This document shows positions 8,052 to 48,018 of a stretch of DNA of 64,000 bases, one piece after another (positions within the stretch are counted from its first letter, which is position 1; every line of letters starts with the position of its first letter). Position numbers and translations under genes: made by a program. This DNA is from a virus. Below the pieces are notes generated by a model. That model saw nothing but the letters and a program-made list of their open reading frames with translations, was not told where the DNA came from and searched no databases. Where the stretch lies: positions 30,958-94,957 of IMG/VR virus record IMGVR_UViG_3300031705_000002; one strand, 5' to 3'.

Positions 8052-8057
8052 ATCTTT

Positions 8058-22600: not shown

Positions 22601-25600
22601 CCCCTAAAGACTCAGTTAAAGGTATCCACATCGGAGTCCCTGCATAATTTAATTCTTGCAGGGTAGGGTCTCCAGGGCATATCGCAGAGCTTGAATATGA
22701 TGCATGATACCCGTCGCCGTCTATGTCTAACACATATAGAGACGTCGTATCACTACATATTATCGCCCCTTCAGCATCGTAGCACTGTTGGTTGAAGTCC
22801 GCTATATTACTCTCTCCAGCGCAATCGCAATACTGTCCATGTACCTCTGTAGAGTTTTGTCCCGCACAGTTACATAAAGAATTGTCTATAAAGTTTCCAC
22901 CACAATCACAGTTAACATCCAGTTGGCCTGTACCGCCATCACAGTCACATACACCGTATGCCTGTAAGTATGTTATGGTATTTTGATCTAAATTCCCCGC
23001 TAAGTGGTCTGTGTACTGATCACAATTGCAGTACCCGTTACTATCAGAAATAACAGTGTCAGGGTTGTTAGTACAATCCGTACAATTAGATATACCTGCC
23101 CCTAAATAAGAGGGAGTCAAACCTCCTGCACCATCACAGTTGCAAGCATTCGTAGGATTTACACAAAGACTCTCTAAGTGTTCAGAAGGATAAAGGTCGT
23201 CACCAGAGTTTAGAAGTAAACCATCCTCCACAAAAGATCCTGAAGTTCCGTATCCGTTACAGTTAGTAGTATCTGTTAATAAATCTGAGCATCCATAGAA
23301 GGTGCATGCAGATAAATCTTCTACACAATCAGTGACGCCTTGGCACCCTGCTGCAGAAGTGTTATTTCCTAGGTTTGTCCCCTGAGGACATTCATAGCAT
23401 GCGGTTGTTTGGGTTCCTGTGCCTTCTAGGTATACAGCGCCAGACCCTGCACCAGTTACATCGCCATTGGTATGGCAAACCCCACACTGATCCACGTGAG
23501 TAACTCTGTAATCTCCCATACATACATCACAGGCATCCCCAAAGGTGCCTTCATCAAACGGGGGAGTCGTACAGCTACCATCATTGACGTTAGCTAGGGG
23601 ATTAAAATTACAACACCAGTCATACGTACATCCAAATATAGGAAGAATGTAACCTAGATCCTCTCCTATATCAGTTACAATTCCCCCAAACTCTCCTTTA
23701 GCGGGTAGTAATGGGTAGGCTCCAAGGGAATCCCCCTTATAGAGATCTATACCAAACGCAATGCGAACCGCGTCAAAGTCTTCAGGGTTAACTAATCTAG
23801 ATATTCTAGAGTGGAAGTTAGTACCTATATATATATGCCCATTAGGCAACTTTAAAATATTGTTTATAAGTCCTGCAGCGTTTACATCCTCTACATCAAG
23901 AAGATTCCGTTTTATGTCGTTCGCCGAAATAACAGTACCAGCAGGTAGGTGGGTAAGGGGTGAAAAACCAACCTGCCCTCGTTTATATTTTCTTATACCT
24001 CGAATATCCCCCGCTCCATCCGCAACAGTAACATATACGATGTCTACTGCCAGTTCCATAGAAGCTATAGAACCATATACTGAATCAAATAGCTCTGATA
24101 AAGACATAGTTATTACAGTCGTCGACCCACTAGTTGGAAGTGTAGCCAAAGAGGGAGCGCCGTTGTTGCTTGTATAACTAAGTGCATACAAGGCTTCAGA
24201 TACTTTTAGTATCCCCCCATCAAACGTACCTGACGTACCTGATAAATCTGTAGACAAATGCTCTGTTAAAGTAGATGTAGAAATATCGTTAACAATAGGA
24301 AACGATTGTAGTTTCATTGTAACACCTATATGGGTATAAACATATATAACAGTTCTGTTACCTAGACCTGTATTTATAACACAAGTATCTACTATTACTT
24401 CTGATTCAGGTATAGTTAATATCTCTCCCTCCAAAACTACTGTACCTAAACACATACCCCAAGGAGCTGTGAAGGAGGTACATCCTATACCAAAAGTCAA
24501 CTTATAACTTTTAAATACATTGCCATCTAAGGTTATTATTTTATAGTGAAAATCATCTAATCCTGTGTAAGTTTCCACAGAAATAACCTCTCCCTCTATA
24601 ACGCTTAGTGTGTCTCCTATTCTATTCAGCACAGTGTATGCCTCCTCGCCGTTTATTTTCGCTACAACTGCAACTAAAACTCCGTTAGATGACACTATCC
24701 TAGCTCCCTCTACGGATAAGTCAATATTTTTATTATTTATATAATATTCAAAAGAAGAAACGTCAGCAGGTAAAGATAAATCTTTAAGATTTACTGCTTC
24801 TCTCCCTACATTTGTAGCTACATACATATATTCCTCACTATCCCCTATAGGTAAAAAAGCTCCTGGAGGTGTAGGGGTTATTATATTTAATTGCCTGTGG
24901 TTGTTCGGGTCTCTCCATTCGAGGGAGTGCGTTAGCAAAAATTCTTCATAAGAATTAAAACTTACAGCTACTCCTAGACCTGTTTCTAAGCTAATTTTTG
25001 CAGTATCTATGACTAGCGAATTGTTGTGACCCTCTAATGGGAGAGGCAACTCCTTGATAAGTATGTCAGGCAAATTAATCAAAGTGTCTACAGATGTCTG
25101 AAGGTCAGGGGTAGGTATAACTATATACTCTGTACTACCTTTGGCGTACACATGTATAGCTCCATCCTTACTTAATGAAATATCTGTTATAGTACTAGAT
25201 AAAGGATTGCTTATAGATACGATACTAGACCTTATTTCTCCGTGTATTTCATTCTCAAAGAATTCCTCGGAATTAAGTCTGGTTAAATTGTATACTGTTA
25301 TATACTGATCTCCGCTACTAGCGTCTTCCGATATAGTATATAGAAAATTATCATGAGGAGATAGAACTGCTTTTTTAAATAAAACGCCATAATCTCCTTC
25401 AGTAAGATTGTGATCTGTGTTTGGTGCTGCAGCGTACATATGTATTTCTAATCCGTCCACTTCGGTGGGGGCTAGTAACGCTCCACTTATATTATCTACA
25501 TACGTAAGTATAAACCCAAACTTCCCGCCTATAACTACCAGTTTTTTACCTATCCCTAAGTCTGTTGCACCAGAGTTAAGTAGTGTCGTTACCTGGGATG

Positions 25601-27527
25601 ACACTAGATGCCCTGAGCGTAATCTACTAGATATAATAAAAGGAATATCATTAAGTTTAGCACTATCGTAATCTCCGCTCCCATAATCCACCCCCGTGTA
25701 AACCTCAGTTTCTAAGTCTAAGATAGCATCTAAACCGTCTCCATCCGTTATACCTAGTGTACTAAAATCTAAATATCCCTCCTCGTCTGTAAGGAATTTT
25801 ACTCCAGGTATGTTATACATCCTAGATAAACTTTTTGAAAGACCTCTAGAATCAAGTCCGTCGGACTCGAAGAAACTGTACCCTTTGAAGGTTATTGTAT
25901 AGGCTTTAGCGTCCCCCATACCATCAGTCATCAGTCTTGCAGACATTCCAGTTCCCCCTCCCACTATGTCACCACCCTGCTCTACATATTGGTTTCTAGC
26001 ACTTCTAATATTTACTACATCACTCTGCTGTATACTAACATCTAACAACTCTAAATCTCTATATACCGTATAACTGTCTTGTACAGGAGATAATGCCAAT
26101 GTGAGTGTTCTAGGAAGAGTCATCCCTATAAATGAGGTACCAGCATCCTGTGTACGCGATGAGAGTATTGAGGCAACCCTACCATGAAAAGCTTTAGATT
26201 TACCTACAGAATTCTCTGCATAGTATATAGTACTTTCGTCTTCAAAAAGACCTGAACTCTCTATAATACCCCCTACAAACTCTCCTCCTATAACAATACC
26301 TGGAGTATCTATATGGAAAGTATTTACAATCTCCCCTAATTCTACGTCAGGGTTGTCGCAGTCTATCCCTGGGTAATCCGCAGGGGTTCTATCTAAAATA
26401 GTCTTAACAGATAGGTACGCGCCAGAGGTAAAAAATATATTGGTATATTCCTCCCCTACATCTGTAACACTTCGAACAGAGAGAAACTTCTCCTTAGCCA
26501 CAAACTCTGAGGGCTCTAAATCTGTGTGAAGACCTGTACCATGGTAAAAGTTCGCCATAGAGGTTCCAAGCCTATCTGAAATGGATGCCACCCATTTACC
26601 ATCTAAAATACCAATAAATATATAGTTTAAAACTATAGAGTTTTCTTCTAATATTGAAGAGGATGTTACGTAGTCTAGGGTATCACTCTTAACGGGGGAA
26701 ACATAAGAAGCCCCACTCATCAAATCAACATAATTAAACATATCCTCAAACGCCCCTAAGAGTATATAGTTGTGGGTAGGTACCACAAACCTTGAAGCAT
26801 CTATATCATGGAAGGTTTTTGTTTTAACAACTTTGGCGCAAGATCCATCATCTACGTTAGCATTAGAATTAAAGTTAGAAGATAAAGAATTAGTACACCC
26901 ATAAACCCAAGGGTTAGTGCTATTTGTACCTCCGTATAGTTTAAAAATATGTGACTTTAAAATCTTATATCTATTCAGCACATAAGTAGTAATATCTCCT
27001 TCGGGAGATGTTCTGATGCCGTGTTTACTATGAAACACGTTCCCGTGGTATGAAACGTTAACTACTGTATCTCCCTTCTGATCTCCTAACCCTAAAAGGT
27101 TACCTATGTAATGTAAGGTAGCGGGCATCATGTTTACCCTCTTAGGTAATAGTGTAGTACCCCAAGAAGTGGAATTACTGTATGTGATTGAAGTCTTAGT
27201 AACTTTTGTATCAGTAATTGCAGAAGAAAAGTCAAACAAAATGTCTGCCTCCTTTTTGCTTACCTCCTTAAACTTAACAAGTAGATTCCCGTCCAGGTGC
27301 ATATTATTACTATACAAGTCTGTCAATAGGGACTCCCATTGAAATAATGCATTATGTATATCTATGACAATACCTCCTATATCACTAGGAACTTTAGACG
27401 AATCCTGGAAATAGTTTGTATCTATATGGTAACCCAACTCTAATATATCAGAACTTCCCGCTTTAACATTGTTAATAGCAGTAAGTAACGGTTGGAATAT
27501 CTTTAATGAGTTTAATTTATAAGCCAT
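19659..27527 (-). CDS. Giant Cys-rich adhesin/tail protein (2,622 residues)
   Basis: The largest complete gene in the window. The N-terminal half (about residues 1-1,290) is beta-rich with propeller-like repeats. It holds one early Cys module near residue 210 (GCTNSLSSNF...DDGSC). Residues about 1,295-1,900 are very rich in Cys, with many 'CDCxG' and 'CGVCxG' units, a calcium-site-like LDIDGDGY and full modules such as CTGCTDPQAYNHDP. Another module (GCTTIGSFNYDID, then DDGSC) lies near 2,535, and the C-terminus ends LADLCNCKTC. Such modules are typical of cell-surface proteins of marine Bacteroidetes. No signal peptide is seen, so it is probably a virion adhesin rather than a secreted protein. 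Confidence 0.75.
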   Translation of the reverse strand: MAYKLNSLKIFQPLLTAINNVKAGSSDILELGYHIDTNYFQDSSKVPSDIGGIVIDIHNALFQWESLLTDLYSNNMHLDGNLLVKFKEVSKKEADILFDFSSAITDTKVTKTSITYSNSTSWGTTLLPKRVNMMPATLHYIGNLLGLGDQKGDTVVNVSYHGNVFHSKHGIRTSPEGDITTYVLNRYKILKSHIFKLYGGTNSTNPWVYGCTNSLSSNFNSNANVDDGSCAKVVKTKTFHDIDASRFVVPTHNYILLGAFEDMFNYVDLMSGASYVSPVKSDTLDYVTSSSILEENSIVLNYIFIGILDGKWVASISDRLGTSMANFYHGTGLHTDLEPSEFVAKEKFLSVRSVTDVGEEYTNIFFTSGAYLSVKTILDRTPADYPGIDCDNPDVELGEIVNTFHIDTPGIVIGGEFVGGIIESSGLFEDESTIYYAENSVGKSKAFHGRVASILSSRTQDAGTSFIGMTLPRTLTLALSPVQDSYTVYRDLELLDVSIQQSDVVNIRSARNQYVEQGGDIVGGGTGMSARLMTDGMGDAKAYTITFKGYSFFESDGLDSRGLSKSLSRMYNIPGVKFLTDEEGYLDFSTLGITDGDGLDAILDLETEVYTGVDYGSGDYDSAKLNDIPFIISSRLRSGHLVSSQVTTLLNSGATDLGIGKKLVVIGGKFGFILTYVDNISGALLAPTEVDGLEIHMYAAAPNTDHNLTEGDYGVLFKKAVLSPHDNFLYTISEDASSGDQYITVYNLTRLNSEEFFENEIHGEIRSSIVSISNPLSSTITDISLSKDGAIHVYAKGSTEYIVIPTPDLQTSVDTLINLPDILIKELPLPLEGHNNSLVIDTAKISLETGLGVAVSFNSYEEFLLTHSLEWRDPNNHRQLNIITPTPPGAFLPIGDSEEYMYVATNVGREAVNLKDLSLPADVSSFEYYINNKNIDLSVEGARIVSSNGVLVAVVAKINGEEAYTVLNRIGDTLSVIEGEVISVETYTGLDDFHYKIITLDGNVFKSYKLTFGIGCTSFTAPWGMCLGTVVLEGEILTIPESEVIVDTCVINTGLGNRTVIYVYTHIGVTMKLQSFPIVNDISTSTLTEHLSTDLSGTSGTFDGGILKVSEALYALSYTSNNGAPSLATLPTSGSTTVITMSLSELFDSVYGSIASMELAVDIVYVTVADGAGDIRGIRKYKRGQVGFSPLTHLPAGTVISANDIKRNLLDVEDVNAAGLINNILKLPNGHIYIGTNFHSRISRLVNPEDFDAVRIAFGIDLYKGDSLGAYPLLPAKGEFGGIVTDIGEDLGYILPIFGCTYDWCCNFNPLANVNDGSCTTPPFDEGTFGDACDVCMGDYRVTHVDQCGVCHTNGDVTGAGSGAVYLEGTGTQTTACYECPQGTNLGNNTSAAGCQGVTDCVEDLSACTFYGCSDLLTDTTNCNGYGTSGSFVEDGLLLNSGDDLYPSEHLESLCVNPTNACNCDGAGGLTPSYLGAGISNCTDCTNNPDTVISDSNGYCNCDQYTDHLAGNLDQNTITYLQAYGVCDCDGGTGQLDVNCDCGGNFIDNSLCNCAGQNSTEVHGQYCDCAGESNIADFNQQCYDAEGAIICSDTTSLYVLDIDGDGYHASYSSSAICPGDPTLQELNYAGTPMWIPLTESLGVDGCEGFSDECNECIPHGVEGVLTSTPFEMGECGCFDPTVEATEYECACADIPEGYCDCEGNIPFASPNCGCVDGAAAPSYTVEYSPGGISNSCDNTVTFDDCMVSTTEFVVGAVYDEATTIYTLAGNQYCAPGGCSSYASLAPLAFGECCSGYVYDEFVGACVLLGTETDTDCAGVQGGTSTLDACLICNGPNEVVPQCECNNATTFVIGTTTPGDVCDCQGSTVDLCGVCDGNNSTCTGCTDPQAYNHDPTALVEGGNCEYFGITNPEDFTVLDSSVDAVYFSGNPIITHHTGTYSNVNGEDTYTIGYYDLEVGLNDVISELLPIPGEVVYTRDNPYITKRCQNITRLNPTLTLAGADENAEVTFSYSITNPSVNTITGVLGSVSSIDSNTVSTVIGKAVSFYFRVTDELIDNVYIEDVFGSYIGSNIISVTKLDVDTDVIEHGTIEGFVHLAVYQDETTATPQNFYETNYHVYRVLMALDPDGTIAELTQGISFAPYFPDLDSNVTTVYVCTGVCQYEDWGTESNNVMFLLTSGAISQSQAQTLSTGGVVSIVTSVGNLTTAPTSTLYIPDAGVCGACVDPCITSGGYLSVCTDTVAVSFSEILGDCEISDNSVCEYIVPTSYCPNTDYLEFNPEATSDPTYWTPDMSLCQTLIELEDVEGTEDLSGVYTITVEPEGAEANIDYILYTISGTILNTVTASGITTILNSPDCVGFMPIGFNYLNSWVDLTLTLRKGENVLHVLDHGSSTTADGSIVLKTGPGSCSIGCSPLAINTLGCSRDVKEDEGEFTSFTVEVITEESPVSDYSDTAFVIYNVATGEKLVDLSGALTEGASVSEGFTLAESTPIGVKVLSDNMVVYVLKDEYGNTLQTKTVYNSTYFEPFTLNLIKPGCTTIGSFNYDIDALYDDGSCVSTELHNCIENSMTAVNLLKEDTESQLKALKVYAIYQAYVASLKEGNQIKIEMYKEKLADLCNCKTC

Positions 27528-27538
27528 CTGTATTTATC

Positions 27539-29050
27539 TTATTTTAAAGGTTTTACTATAAACATATGACCTAGGGCGTCATTTAAAGCTGTCGCGCACT
27601 TTAGAGTCCCCTGCACAGAAAAAGTACTAAGCCAGTTATCTAAATCTACACTTGCAAAATTATTATTAACAACTACCCCGTCTACTGCAATAGAAGATAC
27701 AATATACGCCCGAAGATCAGAAGACTTAAGAACAGTAGCAGTTAATTTAAAAGTTCCTACGGCTGATATAGTCCCAGTAGTAGCTATTGACACACTATTA
27801 ATCATAATGTCTGCTGAATTATTAGTAGTATCACTGAAGCTGCCATAGTATTCTATCTCAAACCCTTCATTTACATCGTACTCTGATAGATCTATATCAA
27901 AAGAATATATAGGATCATCAGCATTTAAAACTAAAGCGTACTTTTTGGCCGCACTTTTTAAAATACCTGAACCTGAACCTGAAGATATGTTCTCTCTTTT
28001 ATTATGAGTATTACTTTCTATATAATAATCCTTTCCATCGTTATAGATAGAAACAGCTTGATACTTTTGGTTTAAAGTTAATGTAGGAGCAGACTCTATA
28101 GTATCCTGAGAACTAGTGCTCACAACTATATTATTTATATCTGCATATCCATACTCGTCTTTTATTACAAACTTAGTAAGCTTGGGATTTTGTAAAGACT
28201 TTACACTAGGTAATGTAATAGATACAGACCCTCTTCTGGAATCCGCAGCTATAATACCTCTATCGCTTTCCTTAGCTATGAATGCATTAAAATCAACTAA
28301 CCTTCTATTAAACATACTACTACCTTCTAAAACCTCTCTAATACTTCTAGGAGACATAGCGGATAAAGAGCTGGTTAGGTTTTGAGAGTCCTCCGATGAG
28401 GATAACTTTAATATACCTGCCACCTCTTCTGTGGCGAATACTACGTTAGTATTTATAATAGCAAACTGAGTCCCCACCTCTCCATGCGTTCCTCCAGCAC
28501 TTCCTGCTGTACATATTATAATATCCCCTTTCTGCACGCTAGGACCATTAAGGGCGAACTTAGGGTACTCTTTCATGGAGATATAAGTATCTCCTGCTGC
28601 AGACCTAGGGTAGACACTCCCATCAAGTTCTTTTATTGTCTTTAAAGATGCAACCAAGAGAGAGTCTGCATACCTTTTGTTAATTAAATCGTCATTGCTA
28701 AACATCGTCACCTTATCATACGTTAAGGGGGCAGATATTTTAGAAGATCCATCTACCTTAATTAGGTGAGCAACCTTAGTGTCTACATAAGATTTATTTG
28801 AAGCATCTCCTCCTACCTTAGGTGAGGGTACCTTTAAAGGTTTAACTAATACTGGGTTGTTTTTATTTAAAGTGTTCTTTTGTATATCCTTCTTTAGCGT
28901 CCTTAACTCTGCAGCCAGCTTATCGCCACTCAGAGTCAGGACCTTAGTAAGATCACTCACACTTATATTCTTAACTTTGCCTCCCTGTACTATAGTTAAA
29001 AGATCAGAACTGGTAGGTTTGGTCGTTTTAGGTAAATTCGATATTTTCAT
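27539..29050 (-). CDS. Tail fibre/spike-type protein
   Basis: 503 residues. N-terminal MKISNLPKTTKPTSSDLLTI is a typical tail-fibre opening; KVGGDASNKSYVDTKV and NDDLINKRYADSLL are the 'NKxYVD/NKRYAD' repeats of phage fibre shafts; SLSAMSPRSIREVL also fits. The C-terminal 150 residues are beta-rich with YSFDIDLSEYDVNEGFEIEY. It lies inside the adhesion module between the 238-residue protein and the giant Cys-rich protein, so it probably belongs to the same host-contact structure. Confidence 0.7.
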   Translation of the reverse strand: MKISNLPKTTKPTSSDLLTIVQGGKVKNISVSDLTKVLTLSGDKLAAELRTLKKDIQKNTLNKNNPVLVKPLKVPSPKVGGDASNKSYVDTKVAHLIKVDGSSKISAPLTYDKVTMFSNDDLINKRYADSLLVASLKTIKELDGSVYPRSAAGDTYISMKEYPKFALNGPSVQKGDIIICTAGSAGGTHGEVGTQFAIINTNVVFATEEVAGILKLSSSEDSQNLTSSLSAMSPRSIREVLEGSSMFNRRLVDFNAFIAKESDRGIIAADSRRGSVSITLPSVKSLQNPKLTKFVIKDEYGYADINNIVVSTSSQDTIESAPTLTLNQKYQAVSIYNDGKDYYIESNTHNKRENISSGSGSGILKSAAKKYALVLNADDPIYSFDIDLSEYDVNEGFEIEYYGSFSDTTNNSADIMINSVSIATTGTISAVGTFKLTATVLKSSDLRAYIVSSIAVDGVVVNNNFASVDLDNWLSTFSVQGTLKCATALNDALGHMFIVKPLK

Positions 29051-29060
29051 TATTCGTTAT

Positions 29061-29777
29061 TTATACATCTAATGGACGACCATCTTCAGTAGTTAGTGAC
29101 TTATTATCATTTAATCTTAGAACCTCTCTCTCTTGAGGCGTTTTCTTGAACTCTGCCTTCACCTCTAAGTACTTATTATTAGAGTATGAGATACCCATCT
29201 CTACCGCCACCTTATCTAGAAGAGCATCCCAGTGTTTAATAGCGTTGACACTTAGTGGTTGAGTAGGGGATACGTAATAATCAACCCCACCCGACACTCT
29301 AGGGTGCGCAGACACAGAGGCATTAGAGATAGTTACACTACCTCCATTATATTTAGACCCCTTAGGGAAGGTAAACGACAGAGAATTATTTTGCACGTCT
29401 AATGTAGCCCCTATTGTAGGGTGAAATACATCTATATTTAGTAAAGATTGATTTTCTTCTATATTAAGTTTTCCTATTAACTCCCTAAAACCCTCTAATG
29501 TGGTTATAAATACATTAACGGTTGCAGGGTAGGTTACCATAGACGACGAGGACACCACAACCGATATAGGGTTAGGTGTGCGGGATGTTATATTTATAGG
29601 CTCCTTTATTGTGTCCCCTAAAAGATCTAACCATGAGGCCAATACATTATATGTAGACTCCATCTTCCTGTTACTTCTTCCTGAGGACAGCTTAGATATT
29701 ATTTTAAAGGAGTATTCCCTAAAGGAATACCTAGCCTGTATATATTTCTTATATATAGATAGTTGTGTAGCAGTCAT
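29061..29777 (-). CDS. Adhesion-module structural protein, unknown
   Basis: 238 residues. A helical N-terminus (QLSIYKKYIQARYSFREYSF) is followed by a beta-rich part (PISVVVSSSSMVTYPATVNV, NNSLSFTFPKG) and a polar C-terminus. No enzyme motif or signal peptide. It starts six bases after the end of the larger metalloprotease cluster and is co-oriented with it. I do not recognise the family; probably a virion protein. Confidence 0.5.
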   Translation of the reverse strand: MTATQLSIYKKYIQARYSFREYSFKIISKLSSGRSNRKMESTYNVLASWLDLLGDTIKEPINITSRTPNPISVVVSSSSMVTYPATVNVFITTLEGFRELIGKLNIEENQSLLNIDVFHPTIGATLDVQNNSLSFTFPKGSKYNGGSVTISNASVSAHPRVSGGVDYYVSPTQPLSVNAIKHWDALLDKVAVEMGISYSNNKYLEVKAEFKKTPQEREVLRLNDNKSLTTEDGRPLDV

Positions 29778-29783
29778 GTTATA

Positions 29784-32700
29784 TTATAATTTTACAAATT
29801 TACAAATATTTTCTATATTTTCTTTGATTTTAAAGAACTTTTTCGCATATTCAAGCGCGATAGGTGTTTTTATATTCACAGCCTTTAACTGTTCTGAGGT
29901 ATACAGTCTGAATAAGATACTCCCGAGAGTGCCTGCCCAAACCATCTCCCCTAACCTACGTACGTAAGGTCCCGAATAAGACTCCCCAGAAGCTGAGTAG
30001 TATACTCCTCCCAAGGTAAATAACTTAGAAGTTAGTGTGAAGTTTAAGGAATCTCTTGGGAGAGGTTCTTCGACATACTCCCCGCAGTCTACTTCATATT
30101 CCACGCCAGAATCTAGGATTATCTGATTAATCGTCTCATCGGAGGCTCCGCCCCCTATAAAGCACCCCTCCGATGTAAGAACACCCGAAAGACATGCATC
30201 GTCACTAAGTACGTACTGGTAACCCCCACCCGCACATTCTTGGCCTTCAGTGTCATACAAAGGGTATTCATCGTTATATAGTACAGGGCTCTCTGTAGCT
30301 CCCTCCTCAAAGTATTCAAGGTATTCCTCTAAGTATAGGGCGTCTCCGCAATCTGTAGGTGAGACAACTTCACATATCTCTATTATATGTGTAGGGACTA
30401 CACAGCCTTCTTCCCCTAAAAATATACAGTGTCTCCAGTCATATATAGATGCATCAGGGTTGTAATTAAGAGCCTCTATATCCATACACCCTACAAGTGA
30501 GGTGGTATCTATAGCCTCTATGTACTCTACAATTTCCGTAAAAATAGGAGTAAAAAGATCCACAGTAGATACATATGTTTTTAAGTCTAATAAGTCTGCA
30601 AACACCTTCATGGGAGCGAAGGTTCCTGCGCCTGAATCCAGAACCTCCTCAATAATAGCTATCTGAGAAGGGCTATAGGCCTGCCTAGTTCCTGAATATA
30701 TTACATTGTCTAGGGTCTTATACCCCTCTCCGTACCCGTAAGACCTAACACCAGTACCAAGACTGTAATTCATAGGATCCGCTAGTGTATTGAATGTATA
30801 GGTGTACCCGTTAAACGTCATTCCGTGTAGATACAACTCCGTACTTTCTCCCTTAAGATAGCTCTTATAGCTATCTATATCTAAGTCTACTATTTTATAA
30901 GGATTGTAGTATTCAGAGTACATTTCAGTGCTTCCCGTAATAACTCTATTTAACATCGTCCCTGCACTTCGACGTGAATAGTCCATAGGCATTACATCAG
31001 GGTACGAGTATATATCCGAGATGTCTACGTATGTACCCCCTCCTACCGCAAAAGTTTGGTACGTAAGGGTTTGACCTAAGGCAAGCTCGTAGGGCAACTT
31101 ACTCTCAGGCCCTGCTATACCATAATAACCAAAAGTAGGTAAATGCCCATTATATGTGCTGAAAGCCGCAACATTCCCTTTAAAATATTTTGTAGCCAGA
31201 AGTGAGTTAAACACAAGTAAATTCCTCAAAGTTTGACTGTGTTCATTTACGGCGCCGTCAAAGACGCTCCTCATAACTCTTGCGTAAAGCTCTTGAGCCT
31301 CCCCAATAACGTATCCTACAAAATCACCATCAATATCTCTGTACGTTTGGGGGGTATGTAGACAGGGACAAAACTCTGCATTGTATAAATCATCTGTAGG
31401 AGTATTGTCAGGATAAGGAGGGTAGGCAGTGTTAGCCCAATTACCGTTAACTTCCCAAAACTCATCGTATATATCTGTAGGGGCACCGTCCCCGTCCAAC
31501 TTACAGAAGGACGCCCTTGTAATAAAATCTATAGGAGAAATCCGCGTATAATTAGTGGCAGTAGTAGTAGTTATTACTATATTAGAAAAAACCCCTCCAG
31601 ACGTTGAATCAATAGTTAGGTCAAAGTTTTCGGGGGATGTACTCCACGGAGATATAGTAATGCTTGCTCCGACACTCCCGTTATCTACAATAGTACTCCC
31701 AAACATACCTCCCTCGTGGTGCAGGTTTACATAACCTCCCCCAAATTGCGAAGAAAGGGTTACAGTAAAGCTTATAGATTCAAACCTCCCCTCTATGGGG
31801 ATAATTATAGGCGAACCCCCCATAGTAGTTACACTTCCAGTGGTCTCATTTATATATATAGAGCCATCCATAGATGTATGTATCTTAGCAAAAATTGGAG
31901 TGTAACTTCCCGTAACACCCGAAGTTACATCTTCGTAGTGAGACTTATTAACAACAAATTTAGGGAACCCTTCCTCCGTGACAGCAGTGTCAGACAAGTG
32001 CCCTCCCCAAGGGGCCCCGTGATCTACTGCTGCGGTAGAATATTTAACCTGTAATTTTAGGGCTGAAATCTCCTCGGACGAGAGGTCGAAAGGAGAGCCT
32101 GCTATAGTTTCAGGTATTATTTTTATAGTTACCCCATCTTCCACAACAGTATCATACCCTAAAGTAGGTTTGTTAGGGGAAGAGTGCATGTCCTTTAGGT
32201 GCCTAAACAGCCCACTTAAATACTGACTATCTGTAGTACTTAAGCCTCCAGCACTTTCTGCAGTAAACGTAAATATAGGCTTATATGAATCTACAAGCCC
32301 TCCCTCAAAAGAATGCTTCAAAGCGAAGGTATGCCCAAGCTCATGTGTAAGTATACTCACAAAAGTGTTAAACTTAAACTCAGAAAAAGCACCTATAGGG
32401 GTAGCCATCATAAGCTCCCCGTGCCCCATAAAAGAGTTATTACTCGAGTAACGCGACGTAGGCATAGAGGCTCTACCTGAAAAGTCAACTCTACGGCCAA
32501 ACTTCCCTGAGGGACCCGACAACACTATTATATTTAAAAAAGGATAGCCAGCTTTCCCCGTGTTTTTGTAATATTGGTAAGCTTCGTTTTCAGAGTAATC
32601 AGCTAAGCGCCCATAACGGACATTAATATCCCCGATATTAAATCTAGGGGTTTCGCTAAGAGTTTGGTGCCTATACTTAGCGGACAGTCCTGGGGCCCCA

Positions 32701-33491
32701 AAACCTTCTAAGGTAGAGGCAGCAAGCATTTCAGACCCTTTCAATTTACTCTGGTCTTGAATAAATATAGCCCCCTCAGGTCCGCAATCTATAAATCCTC
32801 CTAAATCTGCTATATGTCTAAGCCGTACTAAGTTTATGTATTCTGGGGTTAACTCCAAAGCAGCCCCCACGCCCCCTGGATCTCCCACCCACTCGCTCTC
32901 AAAGGTAGATGAAAATATAAGAAACTCCTCCTCTGCTGCCTCTCGCTGAGCAAGTGCTTCGTCACTTATAGTGTTTAGGGTGTCAGATGCTGTGTATGAA
33001 AAATAAGGGGAATCAGAGTCTGCCGCAACTTTAAAATCCACTACCGCCCTATCCGAGGCCGCTGAACTTCTGTTAAACTCCTTTAGCATGTTAACTGGGA
33101 GTTTATTGGGTAGCTTTAGTCTTATCTTAGATTCCACTCCGTGGTCTACATTATCTATAGCTGCACCTATCAATACCCCAGGAGGTACATATGTGCCTGC
33201 ATACACCTCATTAAGTTTCTCTAGAGCGTCTATATAAAACTGTTTTCCGTAATGAAAAACCTCCCCTGTCTCTGAATTCTCAAGGAGTGTAAATACCACT
33301 GGCAAGTAAACCAACTCCGCTTCCGTGTAGGGTATGGTCCGTGTAGTTTCTAAGTCTGTGGATCGACCTGCAGCCCTCTTAAGTGTACGGGCTATGTTAG
33401 GTATATCATTAAACTCAGAGTCATCAACTGTGCATTCCTCTACGAATCCCTGTATCTTTTTAGGGTTTTTATTTATAAACTTCTTTGCCAT
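29784..33491 (-). CDS. Virion-associated M43-like (pappalysin/cytophagalysin) metalloprotease, paralogue 1
   Basis: 1,235 residues. N-terminal tag MAKKFINKNPKK, then LVYLPVVFTLLEN, an M43-type lead-in strand. The zinc motif H383-E-L-G-H387-TFALK-H393 is followed by SF and a region with DNVIYSGTRQAYSPSQIAII that resembles the Met-turn segment of M43 enzymes, although the usual Met is not obvious. Near residue 1,000 there is a degenerate Cys module (GCMDIEALNYNPDAS). The C-terminus ends KENIENICKFVKL. It is paralogous to the next gene upstream. No signal peptide, so most likely carried on the virion to cut host surface protein during adsorption; substrate unknown. Confidence 0.8.
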   Translation of the reverse strand: MAKKFINKNPKKIQGFVEECTVDDSEFNDIPNIARTLKRAAGRSTDLETTRTIPYTEAELVYLPVVFTLLENSETGEVFHYGKQFYIDALEKLNEVYAGTYVPPGVLIGAAIDNVDHGVESKIRLKLPNKLPVNMLKEFNRSSAASDRAVVDFKVAADSDSPYFSYTASDTLNTISDEALAQREAAEEEFLIFSSTFESEWVGDPGGVGAALELTPEYINLVRLRHIADLGGFIDCGPEGAIFIQDQSKLKGSEMLAASTLEGFGAPGLSAKYRHQTLSETPRFNIGDINVRYGRLADYSENEAYQYYKNTGKAGYPFLNIIVLSGPSGKFGRRVDFSGRASMPTSRYSSNNSFMGHGELMMATPIGAFSEFKFNTFVSILTHELGHTFALKHSFEGGLVDSYKPIFTFTAESAGGLSTTDSQYLSGLFRHLKDMHSSPNKPTLGYDTVVEDGVTIKIIPETIAGSPFDLSSEEISALKLQVKYSTAAVDHGAPWGGHLSDTAVTEEGFPKFVVNKSHYEDVTSGVTGSYTPIFAKIHTSMDGSIYINETTGSVTTMGGSPIIIPIEGRFESISFTVTLSSQFGGGYVNLHHEGGMFGSTIVDNGSVGASITISPWSTSPENFDLTIDSTSGGVFSNIVITTTTATNYTRISPIDFITRASFCKLDGDGAPTDIYDEFWEVNGNWANTAYPPYPDNTPTDDLYNAEFCPCLHTPQTYRDIDGDFVGYVIGEAQELYARVMRSVFDGAVNEHSQTLRNLLVFNSLLATKYFKGNVAAFSTYNGHLPTFGYYGIAGPESKLPYELALGQTLTYQTFAVGGGTYVDISDIYSYPDVMPMDYSRRSAGTMLNRVITGSTEMYSEYYNPYKIVDLDIDSYKSYLKGESTELYLHGMTFNGYTYTFNTLADPMNYSLGTGVRSYGYGEGYKTLDNVIYSGTRQAYSPSQIAIIEEVLDSGAGTFAPMKVFADLLDLKTYVSTVDLFTPIFTEIVEYIEAIDTTSLVGCMDIEALNYNPDASIYDWRHCIFLGEEGCVVPTHIIEICEVVSPTDCGDALYLEEYLEYFEEGATESPVLYNDEYPLYDTEGQECAGGGYQYVLSDDACLSGVLTSEGCFIGGGASDETINQIILDSGVEYEVDCGEYVEEPLPRDSLNFTLTSKLFTLGGVYYSASGESYSGPYVRRLGEMVWAGTLGSILFRLYTSEQLKAVNIKTPIALEYAKKFFKIKENIENICKFVKL

Positions 33492-36400
33492 TATTTCACG
33501 AATTTACAGATATTTTCTATACTCTCTTTAACTTTAAAGAATTTTTCAGCAGCAACTAGAGTGGGGGTGGTTTTTAAGTTTAGAGCGCTTAGTTGTTCCG
33601 AGGTATACAACCTAAAGGATGTATTACCTATACTACCTGCCCATACGATACCTCCAGTTCTGTACACATAAGGCCCTGAGTAATACTCTCCCTTTGAGGA
33701 GAAATACATTCCTCCAGATGTAAATAGGTTAGGATATATCAAATCTCTAGTGTCTGCAGATTCCCCGCAATTTAAGGTATACTCCGAACTATTAGTGGTT
33801 AGTAATTCTACTAACTCCTCTTCTGAGGTATTCCCCACAAAACAATCCGTGTCTATTGTTCCGTACACACACCCATTATTATCTAATACATATTTAAACC
33901 CTCCACCCCCATCTCCCTCTTCGCAGTCGGGGTCGCCAGGATACTCCTCACTATACAACACAACACTCTCTGTATTCGTACCGTCAAAATATTCTAAAAA
34001 ATCAGCAGGGGGAAGTAGAAACCCACAAATTAATGGAGAGTCTTCTAAGCATACATTTATAATATGTGGGAGTTTGTCACAAATAGGCACTGGGTATATA
34101 CATACTCTATCGTCCCCTATATAACCGTTAGCACTACTAGCTGAGGCAATGTCGTAGTTTAGACCGTTAGTGTCGTTGCACACTATATATTGATCTAAGG
34201 ATGGGTCCGCTATAAGAGTTACTATATCCTCATATATAGGAGTAAATAAATCTGTAGTAGATTCATATGTTCCCAACTCTATAAGATCCCCAAACCTCTT
34301 AGCCCTCTTATACATACCTAGCTCTAAGTCAACCGCTGCTTCCGCAATAGCTATTTGTGCGGGAGAGAAACTAACTCTGCATGTACCGATCTGACCGCTA
34401 CCTCTCGAGAATCCCCCAGACGTAGGGTCTGTATCTAGTAGGGAGCTTGTCAGATATGAAGAGATCGTCCTCCTGTATTGCATACATTCATATATTGACG
34501 TATAATTAAGATTAAACCCTAAAAGATCTTTGTTGTAAAAAACGTTATCTGCCTGTGTAGTTAATCCTGAGAGGGAGTCAGACCAATTCGAAAGTAGATA
34601 GGGGTTGTAATATCGGGAATTTATATTTGAGTTTCCCGTCATAAAACGCTGTTGTATGGGGTACGTCACTTTAAATTCCGCGTGCGCAGTCATTTGAGGG
34701 GCTGTATCCGAAACCCTAGAAGTAGAGGGATCCTCCTTAATATAAGTATTCCCCGAATATAGAGTACTAGGAGTCCCTAAAAGGGCATGCACTTTCCCTA
34801 TAGGGGGCATACCACAAAACCCTATGATAGGTAAAACTCCGTTAGGGCACGGGAGTACATACCCTCTAGTAGCATTTAGAGGGAAGAAATAACTCACCCC
34901 CATCTGCATCGCATTTACAACAGAACTCTTTGAGCTTTTTGCATTAGAAGACGATATATCGGTAACTACATCATCCATTAAGTTATACATATCTCGCATC
35001 CCCTGCGAATCGCTTATAGGGGTAAAAGAACTTATTACTCCATCTGCATCCCTATACAACTGAGGGGTATGTAGACAAGGGCAGTATGTCGCGTCATACA
35101 TAAAATCTGTAGGCATATTATCAGGGTAAGGAGGAAAATCTTCATTAACCCAATTCCCATTTAAAGCCCAAAATTCATCATAAATATTAGTTATAGCACC
35201 ATTACTATCTAGCTTACAGAAGGGTATTCTTGTTACATGATCTACTGCTCTCAGTGTCTCATTTGATACTACCGCCGTAGTATTAACTACTATAGAATGT
35301 ATATAAATAGACGCGGTTGAGGTAGTAGACCTACCTATAACTATATCTGTAACCCCATCCAACTCTGCTGCGGTAAAGGATATTGTAAAAATTTGGTCAG
35401 GATATAGATCCCCCAATATAGCACTACCATATAGTACATTGAAGAGTTGGTCATGCACTTTAACAACAACGTTAGCATTTACCTTAAAAGAAATTACACA
35501 GGAATTAATAATCCCTGCATTCTCAATATTGAATCCTACTCCTCCTCCCAATGCATATGTAGCATTAGTAAACTCTACATACGCCCCGTGATTAATGGGC
35601 GTATTACTATAAGAAGAGGGAGTGAGAAGATCTAAATATATATCCCCACTTATACCATAGGTAACCTGCCCATAAGAAGCTTTATTAATTATAAGTCTCG
35701 GAAACCCCTCTGAAGTAAATTCTGTTTCCGACAGACTGCCTCCCCAAACCACAGTAGTGTTCATTGCGTACTCTAATATTCTCGATTTGTATGTAATCGT
35801 ATTACTGTCGTATAGGTTAAAAAATCCTAAGGAGTCTGCAGTAGGTAGGATCTTTATAGTAACCCCATCCTCCACAACAGTATCCATGTGCATAAAAATG
35901 TTCCCAGGTAAATCTGAAGCAACTAAATCTGCGGCTAGGTTTATTCTACCTTCAACGAAAAGCTTGTCATCATTTGAAAGCGTATTCAGAACTGCTGCAT
36001 CCCCCGTAAAAGGTAGCGAGGTAACATTGTATATATCCGTAAACATATCAGTTGTACGTCCTCCCGTAAAGGTGTGGGATAAAGTAAAGGAGTGCCCTAA
36101 TTCATGTAATAATACATGACAGTACTGTACCATATCCTTGAGTGTGTACATCTCAACTATACCATGTGGTTGCATAGCGAAAGCAGTAGCATCTAATGCT
36201 GTAGGGAAGGGGGATTTACCTGAAAACCCCATACTATTAGCCCAACGAGTTCTCTCATCCCCAGTTCCTCTATAATTAAATACATGTATAGCAGGGATAC
36301 GTAACTGTCTCTGATACTTAGTCCAATACTTCGATGGGCCCAGTGAGGGCTCCATTTTTGTACCATTGTTATTGGCGGGCATCACAAAATCTTTACTGTT

Positions 36401-37309
36401 CCCTCTATCAACACTGGCTGGAGGCGGGTATATCTCTGAGTACTGATTTACGGCTAACGAGTAACCATGTTGATACCCATAGGCAGTCATCCTAGACCCT
36501 TTAAGGTCATTTACATCTCTTATAAATATAGCCCCTGTAGGGCCGCAGTCTATAAAACCTCCCAATTGGTTTATATGGTCAGTACGTTCATACTCAATAA
36601 ACTCAGGAGAAGTAGCCAACAGATTGGTAGCTTCCGTCTCTGAATTACCTACAGATACAGTGTAATTAAATAGAGTGTTATATGCTGCTTCCGCAACAGT
36701 AAAGTCAGCTAAGGCGTCTGCTTGAGCGGTATTCAATACAGAAGAATCATTGTATTTAAAAATACCGTATAAAGACAGATGTGACGAACTTGCCTCTACC
36801 ACATGGTCATGATACCCAAAATCCATAACAGACATAGCATTCGTACTAACAGGGTAGTTGAAATTTTTAAGGACACCTGCGGGAAGTTGCTGAGGTAGTT
36901 TATACCTTATCTTACATTCAACTCCGTGGTCTGTGTGATACTTAGCCGCCCCCATAGTAACTTCGTCAGGGACAACAAAAGTCCCCTCAAGCATAGAGTT
37001 GATTGTATCTATAACATCTATATAAAACTGCATCCCGTTATGGTAAACCGCCTCCTTCTCCCTATCCTCGAATAGATGAAAAACTATTGGAATATAAACA
37101 AGTTCACTTGCAGTGTATTCTGTATAAGGAGCGGCTCGAGAGTTTCTTAGTTCTTTTAGTTTTTCACCCCGCTCTGCGGCTATTTTAGTGACCTCTTTAT
37201 GTCCTGGAATATCTTCATACTTAACCTCCTCCGTGCCGCACGATTCTTCACCGTCTTCTATATCCCTTAAATCTACTTTAGGGCTCTTATTTATAAACTT
37301 TTTTGCCAT
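33491..37309 (-). CDS. Virion-associated M43-like metalloprotease, paralogue 2
   Basis: 1,272 residues. It shares with its neighbour the tag MAKKFINKSPK, the LVYIPIVFHLFED strand, HTDHGVECKIRYKLP, GGFIDCGPTGAIFI, and the zinc motif H402-E-L-G-H406-SFTLS-H412. It also shares the FCKLDxxGxxxxIYDEFW segment and the C-terminal KESIENICKFVK. The segment VSFSPAQIAIAEAAV matches the end of the catalytic region. A divergent Cys module (CNDTNGLNYD) lies near residue 1,050. The gene starts with a one-base overlap with the pseudoprotease gene upstream and ends one base into the next. Probably a tandem duplicate that has diverged to a different substrate. Confidence 0.8.
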   Translation of the reverse strand: MAKKFINKSPKVDLRDIEDGEESCGTEEVKYEDIPGHKEVTKIAAERGEKLKELRNSRAAPYTEYTASELVYIPIVFHLFEDREKEAVYHNGMQFYIDVIDTINSMLEGTFVVPDEVTMGAAKYHTDHGVECKIRYKLPQQLPAGVLKNFNYPVSTNAMSVMDFGYHDHVVEASSSHLSLYGIFKYNDSSVLNTAQADALADFTVAEAAYNTLFNYTVSVGNSETEATNLLATSPEFIEYERTDHINQLGGFIDCGPTGAIFIRDVNDLKGSRMTAYGYQHGYSLAVNQYSEIYPPPASVDRGNSKDFVMPANNNGTKMEPSLGPSKYWTKYQRQLRIPAIHVFNYRGTGDERTRWANSMGFSGKSPFPTALDATAFAMQPHGIVEMYTLKDMVQYCHVLLHELGHSFTLSHTFTGGRTTDMFTDIYNVTSLPFTGDAAVLNTLSNDDKLFVEGRINLAADLVASDLPGNIFMHMDTVVEDGVTIKILPTADSLGFFNLYDSNTITYKSRILEYAMNTTVVWGGSLSETEFTSEGFPRLIINKASYGQVTYGISGDIYLDLLTPSSYSNTPINHGAYVEFTNATYALGGGVGFNIENAGIINSCVISFKVNANVVVKVHDQLFNVLYGSAILGDLYPDQIFTISFTAAELDGVTDIVIGRSTTSTASIYIHSIVVNTTAVVSNETLRAVDHVTRIPFCKLDSNGAITNIYDEFWALNGNWVNEDFPPYPDNMPTDFMYDATYCPCLHTPQLYRDADGVISSFTPISDSQGMRDMYNLMDDVVTDISSSNAKSSKSSVVNAMQMGVSYFFPLNATRGYVLPCPNGVLPIIGFCGMPPIGKVHALLGTPSTLYSGNTYIKEDPSTSRVSDTAPQMTAHAEFKVTYPIQQRFMTGNSNINSRYYNPYLLSNWSDSLSGLTTQADNVFYNKDLLGFNLNYTSIYECMQYRRTISSYLTSSLLDTDPTSGGFSRGSGQIGTCRVSFSPAQIAIAEAAVDLELGMYKRAKRFGDLIELGTYESTTDLFTPIYEDIVTLIADPSLDQYIVCNDTNGLNYDIASASSANGYIGDDRVCIYPVPICDKLPHIINVCLEDSPLICGFLLPPADFLEYFDGTNTESVVLYSEEYPGDPDCEEGDGGGGFKYVLDNNGCVYGTIDTDCFVGNTSEEELVELLTTNSSEYTLNCGESADTRDLIYPNLFTSGGMYFSSKGEYYSGPYVYRTGGIVWAGSIGNTSFRLYTSEQLSALNLKTTPTLVAAEKFFKVKESIENICKFVK

Positions 37310-38613
37310 TACCTATTTAATATGTTATTACATAATAACTGTATCTTCTTAATAATAGCTAAGATACTAGAAGCTTCTAGGGACATATCTTGAGTTTTCT
37401 CTGTGTATATCCTTACAACTGAAGCCCGTACCACCTCTGCACAAGGGTCTACCTCTTCTATAACAGGTATAGTAGTGTACTCTAGGGCAGTAGATGCAAA
37501 CGAATTCCAAGGGCTACCCGTGGTAGCTAAAGATCCTCTTATAAAACTTATCTGGGCAGGAGACCAAATAGATCTTCTCATATCCACCCTTAAAGACATT
37601 ACGTTATCCCCTGATACATAGTGGCCTGTAAGTGTCGGATGAGCGGTGTCTCCACAAGTAGATGCATGACTTTCTGCATTATCTAGAAGCAATGTGCTCC
37701 ATAAAGTTGTCTCTCCTACATAAGGGGTTATATCTGACATACAATCCCCAGCCCCTCCAGTTGACACACACCCAGTATCGTTGCACTCAGCAAGCCCAGT
37801 GTCTCCCTTTAAACTTGCATAATCACTTACGTAAGTAGGCAGCAACCCTAACATACTTCCTATAAGATTTACATAAATCATATGCCTATGCCCCGCCCCG
37901 CCTTCATACGTAGGGACGGTTATATTAGAGTTCTCATAATTTATACCTAAAATACTTTGATTTCCATCTGTTAAAGAATAGAAAGGCAGGAAACCTACAG
38001 ATGGACGATCTGTCCCTGGGTAAGGTCCTTGACTTAATGGGAAAATAGGTGTCCCTCCAAGATGTGTATTATTTAACGCACTAACAAGAACAATAGTTAA
38101 TATACTATTAATATCTACGGTGTTTTTTAGGAGATCTAAGAAGTCTTCCTGATGAACCCCTATGGTTGGTTTTCTATTTCCATTTTCCGTTGAAGCTCTA
38201 AACCCCTCTGTAGCTACAGAGTAGTGTATAGGTAGACCCATAGGGTTAGGTAACGAATCTACAAATGGGGTTGTGTCTATACCAATAACTCCCCCACTAT
38301 CGGTTGAAGTAGCTGATATTTTATTGGTGAGTACGAATTTAAGATTGGCCGTCTTATATGCCCTATTAAGGTTAAAAACTATATCCTTAGCTACCTCTAC
38401 ACTGAAACTATGTTTATACTCGATAACACTATCGGGCCCCATATCATTAGCCACAACAAACAATATAGGTATAATTACCTCTGTTGTTGTGTCGTTGGAC
38501 CCCTGTAAACACGCTAAAGTATAACTCTTAATGCTTTCGAAACTAGCTGGTACGCCTAAGTCGTTTATTAAAACGTCTATGGAAGCGGTTATATTCCCCT
38601 TTTTAAAAATCAT
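37309..38613 (-). CDS. M43-like pseudoprotease with degenerate zinc motif
   Basis: 434 residues. The scaffold follows M43: VIIPILFVVANDMG, FNLNRAYKTANLKFVL, a central region, then 'GDCMSDITP' (equivalent to GDxxxDTP) and NVMSLRVDMRRS plus IWSPAQISFIRG (equivalent to NxMxY...FxxxQ). At the position of HExGHxxGLxH the sequence is N249-L-I-G252-S253-MLGLL-P259: the three His and the Glu are gone, while Gly and the LGL core remain. Hence catalytically dead, if the alignment is right. It may be a binding or assembly partner of the two active paralogues that follow directly. It ends with KIQLLCNNILNR, similar to the C-terminal tails of its neighbours. Confidence 0.75.
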   Translation of the reverse strand: MIFKKGNITASIDVLINDLGVPASFESIKSYTLACLQGSNDTTTEVIIPILFVVANDMGPDSVIEYKHSFSVEVAKDIVFNLNRAYKTANLKFVLTNKISATSTDSGGVIGIDTTPFVDSLPNPMGLPIHYSVATEGFRASTENGNRKPTIGVHQEDFLDLLKNTVDINSILTIVLVSALNNTHLGGTPIFPLSQGPYPGTDRPSVGFLPFYSLTDGNQSILGINYENSNITVPTYEGGAGHRHMIYVNLIGSMLGLLPTYVSDYASLKGDTGLAECNDTGCVSTGGAGDCMSDITPYVGETTLWSTLLLDNAESHASTCGDTAHPTLTGHYVSGDNVMSLRVDMRRSIWSPAQISFIRGSLATTGSPWNSFASTALEYTTIPVIEEVDPCAEVVRASVVRIYTEKTQDMSLEASSILAIIKKIQLLCNNILNR

Positions 38614-38615
38614 AT

Positions 38616-39170
38616 TTAATTTTCTAAACTCTCTAGTAGACTCTTAGCTAACAATGCTTTCTCCAGCGCATCTTCCTCGCAATCATCTGCAAGTAGGTTT
38701 ATAGACGAAAGTGTCTTAGACACCAAGGCAGAGGTCATGCAGGTATTTTTGAAGGGCATTGTGTACTCTCCGTGCATATCTGTTAAATCATTCAAGGCAT
38801 ATACCCTTATGTTGACCTGATATAAAGTATCGTCTAAGGTACTTAATTCTGACGATATTCCCAACTCCTGGTTAAATGTTTCTGCAGGTATTGAAAGTTT
38901 AAATCCTTTAAAACTTTCCTCACTTGGAGTAAACATAAATCCCTGGAAGGTGTCTAAGGAGAAAGTGCCTTCATGTATGGTTATATTCTCAGATGTACCC
39001 ATATAAGCTTGAACACTTATATCAATAGATATATCTTCTTTGTAGGGGTAAATATTGATAGTCCCCCACCCACCTAAATTGTCTTCAGAATAATTTCCTG
39101 TTACATCTTCTATAACAAGATTTCTACAATCATCTGTAGTATGTACTTCTAATCTTAAATCTAAAGCCAT
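38616..39170 (-). CDS. Adhesion-module protein, unknown
   Basis: 184 residues. Beta-rich first part (LRLEVHTTDDCRNLVIEDVTG, cut here; GTINIYPYKEDISIDISV), then a helical C-terminus (SSINLLADDCEEDALEKALL) resembling the terminal helices of the metalloprotease proteins downstream. First gene after the terminator at 39183-39212. Not recognised; a virion role is inferred from the module. Confidence 0.5.
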   Translation of the reverse strand: MALDLRLEVHTTDDCRNLVIEDVTGNYSEDNLGGWGTINIYPYKEDISIDISVQAYMGTSENITIHEGTFSLDTFQGFMFTPSEESFKGFKLSIPAETFNQELGISSELSTLDDTLYQVNIRVYALNDLTDMHGEYTMPFKNTCMTSALVSKTLSSINLLADDCEEDALEKALLAKSLLESLEN

Positions 39171-39234: not shown

Positions 39235-40158
39235 CTATGAAGAGAATATGTTAGCTGCATCAGCAAAGCCTAAAACTTTATCAAGCTCTACACCGCCTGT
39301 TGCTTTAGGCATTGCAATAATAATCTGACATCTTCCTACACCTGCTCCTGCAACTGCATGAGAAGGTCCTGGAATAACACAATCTAAAGACGCTACATCA
39401 TAATCACTACCAGCTAATGCGTTTAAAACTACTAAATCCCCATTATTAGGAACTGTACCGTGACGGTAAGGAGCTCCTGAAGAACCTACACCAAACCACT
39501 CTAGCTCTGCAACCTCTCTCCCGTGACCACTTCCGCGATCAGCACCAGAAACAACGTTTGTTGCTGCTGCTACAAATCCAGTAATGGTTACATCAAACAA
39601 AACCATAGTGTCTGCGTGAAGACCTAAAGACCATGTTTGAGGTTGTCCTACGATAGTCATACCATCATTACCCGCCGTGTGTGCTGCAGATACCTTATCT
39701 TTAGTACCTCCTGCAAGGTTAATCTGAGTCTCAAAATTCTCTAAAACCTCTCCAGCTGTAACTGTATTACCAGTTGTATACTCAAAGAAGTATTGATCTG
39801 ATTGATTTGAAAACAACTCTACATTATGCTTAAAGTTGATTCTTAAAGTATAACGAGTATTTGGAGTGTCATCACATAAATCTAACGTAGTTGTTTGCTC
39901 TACTCTAAGTACATACGCCTTACCTGTAACATTAGCTGCTTTAAATTCTACTAAAGGAGAGAAACGAGCGTTACCGTCTGCATCTTTCATACCAAATTGA
40001 ACAAGTGTTCCGTCAACAATAGCTGCGCCAGTAGGAACTACTGCGCCGTTTTTGTCTAAAATAACTAGCTCGCCAACCTCACTGGCTGCCAAGTTTTCGC
40101 TTATATCTGGATCTACCGTAGATACAAATACGTGCATTGAATTATCTGCTTTATACAT
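39235..40158 (-). CDS. Head-module structural protein, abundant-type
   Basis: 307 residues. A beta-rich protein with no membrane segment: ADNSMHVFVSTVDPD, GELVILDKNGAVVPTG, YTLRINFKHNVELFSNQ, DQYFFEYTTGNTVTAGEVLE, and CQIIIAMPKATGG near the end. It follows the capsid and connector genes and is the last gene before a strong terminator, which fits a highly expressed virion protein such as a capsid auxiliary or tail component. Family not recognised. Confidence 0.6.
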   Translation of the reverse strand: MYKADNSMHVFVSTVDPDISENLAASEVGELVILDKNGAVVPTGAAIVDGTLVQFGMKDADGNARFSPLVEFKAANVTGKAYVLRVEQTTTLDLCDDTPNTRYTLRINFKHNVELFSNQSDQYFFEYTTGNTVTAGEVLENFETQINLAGGTKDKVSAAHTAGNDGMTIVGQPQTWSLGLHADTMVLFDVTITGFVAAATNVVSGADRGSGHGREVAELEWFGVGSSGAPYRHGTVPNNGDLVVLNALAGSDYDVASLDCVIPGPSHAVAGAGVGRCQIIIAMPKATGGVELDKVLGFADAANIFSS

Positions 40159-47637: not shown

Positions 47638-48018
47638 TTATGCTACCTCAAGTATCAAATATTCTAAAAGTGGGGTGTTAGCAGATGATTTTACTTTAAT
47701 AGTCGTGTTGTCTGCGCTTGGGTAGAATAAAAATTCTTCTGGCCCTAACATTGCAAACTCTTGACCACCATCATCAAAAAAGATGATGTCATCTACTAGG
47801 TCTAAGTTTTTAGCGTATACATACGCTTTTTCATCAACTGCTCCAGATAAAGCTTCCACAGTTAATTCTAAGAATGCTCCTGCAGCAGTTTTAACCACTG
47901 TTAACCCTTGACGGTTATCCCCGTCTATAGTTAAAGAGTCAGTTACCGTCTTGGATATATTTACAGTATCGAACAAGTCTGTACTTGAGATACTAAAGGT
48001 TGTTTTTAAAGTTGCCAT
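47638..48018 (-). CDS. Decoration/head-fibre-like protein, paralogue 1
   Basis: 126 residues, beta-rich. It shares with the next gene upstream SISSTDLF near the N-terminus, LGPEEFLFYP in the middle and a PLLEYLILE end, so the two arose by tandem duplication. The fold is probably a small beta-sandwich. Location between terminase and portal and high Thr/Val/Asp content suggest a capsid decoration role. Confidence 0.6.
   Translation of the reverse strand: MATLKTTFSISSTDLFDTVNISKTVTDSLTIDGDNRQGLTVVKTAAGAFLELTVEALSGAVDEKAYVYAKNLDLVDDIIFFDDGGQEFAMLGPEEFLFYPSADNTTIKVKSSANTPLLEYLILEVA

Follow-up and report, generated by a model that had tools for sequence, protein, structure and literature searches.

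The stretch of DNA analysed here (the window: 64,000 nucleotides, positions 30,958 to 94,957 of the IMG/VR record IMGVR_UViG_3300031705_000002) carries a conserved protease/pseudoprotease pair in the genome of a crAssphage-like virus known only from metagenomes. The pair consists of a large protein with an intact metzincin zinc motif, present in the window as two tandem copies (proteins A and B), and of a protein in which the corresponding active site has been lost (protein C). Close relatives of the virus keep this combination of a live and a dead member despite an identity of about 20%, a pattern suggesting that the particle bears a rapidly evolving tool for cutting proteins. We give a probability of roughly 0.6 to the reading that the pair belongs to a virion appendage that cuts a protein on the host surface, with C as a non-catalytic partner.

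The record, of which the window covers most (94,957 bp in total), is Crassvirales-like, with the terminase, portal, HK97 capsid, ring and auxiliary capsid proteins all in order. By profile or with identities of about 30-38%, crAss-like phages gave matches to the terminase, portal, capsid, ring (gp34/35 type), gp33-type and auxiliary capsid (gp36 type) proteins. A second record, IMGVR_UViG_3300031683_000105, contains part of this virus at 99.96% identity. The initial annotation had described three tandem M43-like metalloprotease proteins on a phage; the three open reading frames lie where it had placed them, on the minus strand and in a structural-gene neighbourhood, and the core proteins bear out that this is a phage genome. 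Along transcription the order is C, B, A, with TAATG stop/start overlaps at both C/B and B/A.

Protein C belongs to a pseudoprotease family descended from a pappalysin-like (M43) metzincin and is not a working M43 peptidase, since its zinc and catalytic residues are replaced and the catalytic glutamate is absent from all 24 C-type rows aligned. Tested for HExxHxxGxxH/D, it reads V-N249-L250-I-G-S253-M-L-G-L-L-P259 in place of H-E-x-x-H-x-x-G-x-x-H, so that N, L, S and P occupy the four zinc and catalytic positions, and this third member is indeed dead, as had been proposed. A Pfam search with C gave no match, and BLAST alone shows no similarity to A or B, but the M43-like frame ascribed to C is borne out by profile and by fold. 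The profile built from 18 C-type proteins finds mirolysin, starting at the pro-segment (E=5.1e-6), PAPP-A2 (E=1.4e-4) and also ulilysin, and the AlphaFold2 model of C (predicted local distance difference test score, pLDDT, 67.5; predicted template modelling score 0.70) retrieved proulilysin and promirolysin with Foldseek (best E=1.2e-6, probability 1.00, template modelling score on the target 0.60), all of the top ten matches in the PDB being ulilysin or mirolysin. Profile-profile comparison of C with the proteases yielded only a short N-terminal alignment (29% probability); two of the proteases are nevertheless hit by the C profile at their active-site segment (E=7e-5 and 0.003). Across the family the pair offers a natural series of active-site loss to differing degrees: one clade (L018, L027, L076) has kept all three zinc histidines and changed the glutamate to Ser or Thr, and also retains near the N terminus the Cys-Gly that is the mirolysin pro-segment motif (PMC6949598), and other C-type proteins have lost one to three histidines. 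C-type proteins measure 430-630 amino acids (aa) in the relatives and about 1,000 aa in one subclade (L041, L045, L054), where the enlarged pseudoprotease keeps HNxxH...D, possible zinc ligands without the glutamate.

Judged by their motif, A and B are metzincins, and they likely belong to M43. The zinc motifs H383-ELGH-TFALK-H393 of A and H402-ELGH-SFTLS-H412 of B, described as intact by the initial annotation, are confirmed in the translations; the same HExxHxxGxxH/D test found the three histidines and the glutamate in both, and these four residues are invariant in 18 of 18 aligned proteases. The pattern HExxH(5)H arose in 4 and 6 of 20,000 shuffles of the A and B sequences, so that two occurrences in one operon are not a matter of chance, an origin that these frequencies together with the conservation rule out. 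The two proteins are 38% identical across their full length and form sisters in the tree (100/100 support). With a profile of the protease family, the best match is the metzincin myroilysin (E=1.2e-6), followed by weaker matches to matrixins and by PAPP-A (E=0.012). A carries a candidate M-x-Y Met-turn, followed by a (Y/F)SPxQI segment, about 515 residues past the zinc motif, a spacing that implies a large insertion; at this position the Tyr is found in 14 and the Met in 10 of 14 aligned relatives. An N-terminal cysteine is present in 17 of the 18 proteases, as Cys-Gly in B and a few others and not in A, and no N-terminal hydrophobic segment was found in A and B. In one relative (L022, 7459-8640), the protease start contains HEYMHGAISGNH, and the spacing between second and third histidine is one residue above that of the usual motif.

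Relatives were gathered by scanning IMG/VR with the capsid protein, which gave about 85 loci. Direct IMG/VR scans with B and with A/B recovered nothing because these proteins are too variable, a difficulty that the capsid query solved, and the sole match to C in IMG/VR was the 99.96% identical fragment. A tblastn search of INPHARED (50,697 phage records) with A, B, one protease and one C-type protein revealed no relevant relative; three Yersinia phage matches at E=2 were judged to be noise. Counting loci with at least 5.2 kb of downstream sequence, and taking as close relatives those with a capsid protein at least 79% identical, we found that 23 of 23 have a C-type gene downstream of that for the auxiliary capsid protein, and that all 19 with enough sequence have a metzincin-motif protein adjoining it, normally in one copy, the contigs of the other four ending before the protease position. 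Several of these loci fed the profiles used in counting; the motif and BLAST evidence is independent of those profiles. In distant relatives (capsid identity of 68% or less), neither the C-type gene nor the protease was found (0/16); one of them, at 43% capsid identity and without the protease, was binned in a Neisseriaceae metagenome-assembled genome, which is not informative about the host. The order in close relatives is ring, p40190, auxiliary capsid protein, p38616, C-type protein, metzincin-motif protein (about 1,130-1,950 aa), p29061, p27539 and giant protein. Among the records searched whole, two complete proteases occur only in that of the window. The initial annotation had taken the three proteins as a trio; two members with intact zinc sites and one dead member do occur in this phage, but the trio as the basic unit is rejected, since the relatives hold one protease and one C. 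The evolutionary unit is the protease/pseudoprotease pair, and the trio is this phage's version of it, with a lineage-specific duplication of the protease.

The block evolves very unevenly. Over 12 phages, the capsid protein has a median identity of 88.8%, the ring protein 60%, p38616 38%, the protease 20.6% and C 20%; the protease is among the phage's least conserved proteins, yet its zinc histidines and catalytic glutamate are invariant. The distances of p38616, C, the protease and p29061 intercorrelate (r 0.43-0.66, P about 0.001; p38616 with C, r=0.63, and with the protease, r=0.43; p29061 with the protease, r=0.66), against r 0.16 (P 0.07) for the protease and the capsid protein, correlations that are no more than indicative, given the small sample of twelve phages and the near-saturation of identities around 20%. 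Such covariation fits a set of co-adapted genes that follow changes of host as one module and keep the active site intact.

We propose to read the locus as a Crassvirales-like phage's block of variable appendage genes, at the core of which are the pseudoprotease C and a large, active-looking metzincin bearing a long insertion between zinc helix and Met-turn (A, duplicated to give B). These proteins, which would be made in the cytoplasm without a signal peptide, would join p38616 and p29061 to build an appendage of the particle. On host contact, the protease would cleave a cell-surface or surface-layer protein and so let the tail reach its receptor, an action analogous to that of polysaccharide-cutting tailspikes. 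C, unable to cut, might serve as a structural or substrate-binding subunit, and the conserved N-terminal cysteine may hold the zinc, as a cysteine switch, until the host is met. For a location in the virion, the nearest experimental support would come by synteny from Cellulophaga phage phi14:2, where mass spectrometry places gp098 to gp096, which follow the auxiliary capsid protein at the corresponding position, in the virion. The hypervariability, the module-like covariation and the missing hydrophobic signal at the N terminus of A and B make a role in adsorption likelier than secretion or virion maturation. A more specific version, which we offer tentatively and with more doubt than belief, is that the host-range device of the clade is a virion-borne metzincin, kept latent by a cysteine switch and complexed with a dedicated pseudoprotease, in which the pseudoprotease would bind and the protease cut a host surface protein, the two diversifying jointly under host change around a fixed active site.

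Several observations weigh against the appendage. The presence in virions and the activity of the clade's proteins are both things that we infer, and gp096-gp098 of phi14:2 share the position of these proteins and no detectable sequence similarity with them. Part of the hypervariability could reflect module exchange and not selection by the host surface. The glycine of the zinc motif is Ala in A and Thr in B, although mirolysin also lacks it and has Asp there (PMC6949598). The Pfam M43 family PF05572 scores A at 19.5 and B at 14.8 bits, both under the cut-off of 23, with B scoring slightly better for Reprolysin_5, and the fold prediction of A is poor (pLDDT 38.8), too poor for a fold search. 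Strict membership of A and B in M43 is for these reasons a prediction: the M43-type frame, first put forward for all three proteins, stands for C and is only likely for the other two, and the structural comparison with ulilysin and PAPP-A that had been suggested succeeded with the model of C, which matches ulilysin and mirolysin, and gave nothing usable with that of A.

Other roles for the same genes can be imagined. The protease is encoded within the structural block with stop/start overlaps, and M43 enzymes show cysteine-switch latency and activation by cleavage of the pro-segment (PMC6949598, PMC8259862), both of which would suit an enzyme that matures the phage's own particle, processing fibres, the giant 2,622-aa protein or itself at assembly or release, with C as an assembly chaperone or inhibitor. 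Yet an enzyme maturing a conserved capsid is expected to be conserved, whereas this one has a median identity of 20.6%, covaries weakly with the capsid protein and is missing from more distant crAss-like relatives, and we regard maturation as unlikely. Less probable again is that the metzincin domains have ceased to be enzymes and that all members of the block are receptor-binding scaffolds for the host surface: C keeps the fold without catalysis in the same operon, and large insertions and hypervariability suit binding proteins, but histidines and glutamate that stay invariant in 18 of 18 sequences against a background of about 20% identity are hard to explain without catalysis. We give least credence to a soluble enzyme freed at lysis that would digest surface or matrix proteins, or receptor-bearing debris, outside the particle. 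Release by lysis would fit the absent N-terminal hydrophobic signal, and cellular M43 enzymes are secreted (PMC11674741, PMC6949598); the position among structural genes and the covariation with p38616 and p29061 speak against it.

The lower pappalysins of M43 (ulilysin, mirolysin, cytophagalysin) share with the phage proteins the fold of C and the C-family profile match, including the mirolysin pro-segment region, as well as the zinc motif, in several proteases, A and B among them, a candidate M-x-Y Met-turn and after it a F/Y-T/S-x-x-Q segment, and an N-terminal Cys, in some members Cys-Gly. Unlike them, the phage proteins have no signal peptide that we could see and are paired with a dead paralogue family, and the distance from zinc motif to candidate Met-turn is about 515 residues in A versus about 50. 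The tail modules of phi14:2 and of Bacteroides phage crAss001 have their core genes arranged as in the window as far as the auxiliary capsid protein; in the inspected regions of crAss-like phages we found neither a metzincin motif nor homologues of C, A or B, and the two crAss001/Crassvirales papers searched mention no protease, Crassvirales fibres being described as polysaccharide-directed. A Listeria metzincin/TIMP-like pair of phage origin (PMC8235301) likewise joins a metzincin to a partner protein and is linked to phage genes, but consists of a secreted enzyme and an inhibitor-like lipoprotein on a bacterial chromosome, whereas the partner here is a dead protease in a structural-gene block. 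Virion-associated polysaccharide depolymerases (PMC5380687) are similar in the proposed clearing of a surface barrier before DNA ejection and differ in that the substrate proposed here is a protein.

Polysaccharides and peptidoglycan are familiar targets of the enzymes on phage particles. In the open-licence papers searched, a restriction that makes this weak evidence, there was no described case of a metzincin or pappalysin protein in a phage particle, nor of a clade-wide pappalysin-type protein-cutting device; the kind of enzyme is known, and what appears to be new is its deployment by phages in a conserved protease/pseudoprotease module. The hosts of crAss-like phages are Bacteroidota, and should host range depend on the protease, the protein that it cuts would lead to protein receptors on these hosts.

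Table. Coordinates in the window of the protease/pseudoprotease genes, their predicted sites and the neighbouring genes of the block.
Feature	Position	Strand	Evidence
Protein C, 434 aa, M43-like pseudoprotease	37309..38613	-	profile, AlphaFold2 model, Foldseek
Dead active-site segment of C, N249-L-I-G-S-M-L-G-L-L-P259	37837..37869	-	
Protein B, 1,272 aa	33491..37309	-	tandem paralogue, intact metzincin motif
Zinc/catalytic motif of B, HELGHSFTLSH, residues 402-412	36074..36106	-	
Probable Met-turn of B, M943-Q-Y945	34475..34483	-	
Cys24 of B in SCGTEE	37238..37240	-	Cys-Gly motif resembling M43 pro-segments; compared with mirolysin (PMC6949598)
Protein A, 1,235 aa	29784..33491	-	tandem paralogue, intact metzincin motif
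Zinc/catalytic motif of A, HELGHTFALKH, residues 383-393	32313..32345	-	
Probable Met-turn of A, M907-N-Y909	30765..30773	-	M-x-Y like mirolysin Met284/Tyr286 (PMC6949598)
Cys20 of A, candidate cysteine-switch residue	33432..33434	-	role proposed by analogy with mirolysin Cys23 (PMC6949598)
Auxiliary capsid protein (crAss001 gp36 type)	39235..40158	-	Pfam crAss_AuxCP 41.8 bits (cut-off 27); profile to crAss001 gp36 E=1e-14
p38616, 184 aa, always directly before C	38616..39170	-	
p29061, 238 aa, conserved, after protease	29061..29777	-	
p27539, 503 aa, conserved	27539..29050	-	weak tail collar fibre match phrog_910 E=0.0015; synteny in relatives
Giant protein, 2,622 aa, end of conserved appendage block	19659..27527	-	same-place homologues in relatives

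Homologues of the giant protein in the relatives measure about 2,700-3,300 aa and are split in one. Recurring Cys-bounded segments with an A-x-N-Y-like core, e.g. GCTDPQAYNHDPTALVEGGNC and GCMDIEALNYNPDASIYDWRHC, are found in the giant protein (19659-27527), in a stabilization-type protein (1-5958) and in residues 1002-1022 of A. Beside the appendage block lie genes for an M15 peptidase, a probable endolysin (15834-16292), and for a thioredoxin-like protein (16785-17153).

The window also holds a duplicated block (6880-9592 and 13116-15837), the copies of which are 30% identical for the IHF-like protein (gp42 type), 27% for the R2 ring protein (gp40 type), 55% for a phosphoesterase/exonuclease-like protein and 84% for a 128-aa protein. 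Since the identities differ between genes, the ring pair may have been duplicated long ago and the other two genes exchanged more recently. In an N-terminal stretch, the second phosphoesterase-like copy (14276-15454) resembles homing endonuclease DNA-binding domains (NUMOD-like, E=7e-4); the first copy showed no such match. Finally, two adjacent small paralogues of 126 and 144 aa (47638-48018 and 48036-48470), 32% identical, lie between terminase and portal and are kept in the relatives.
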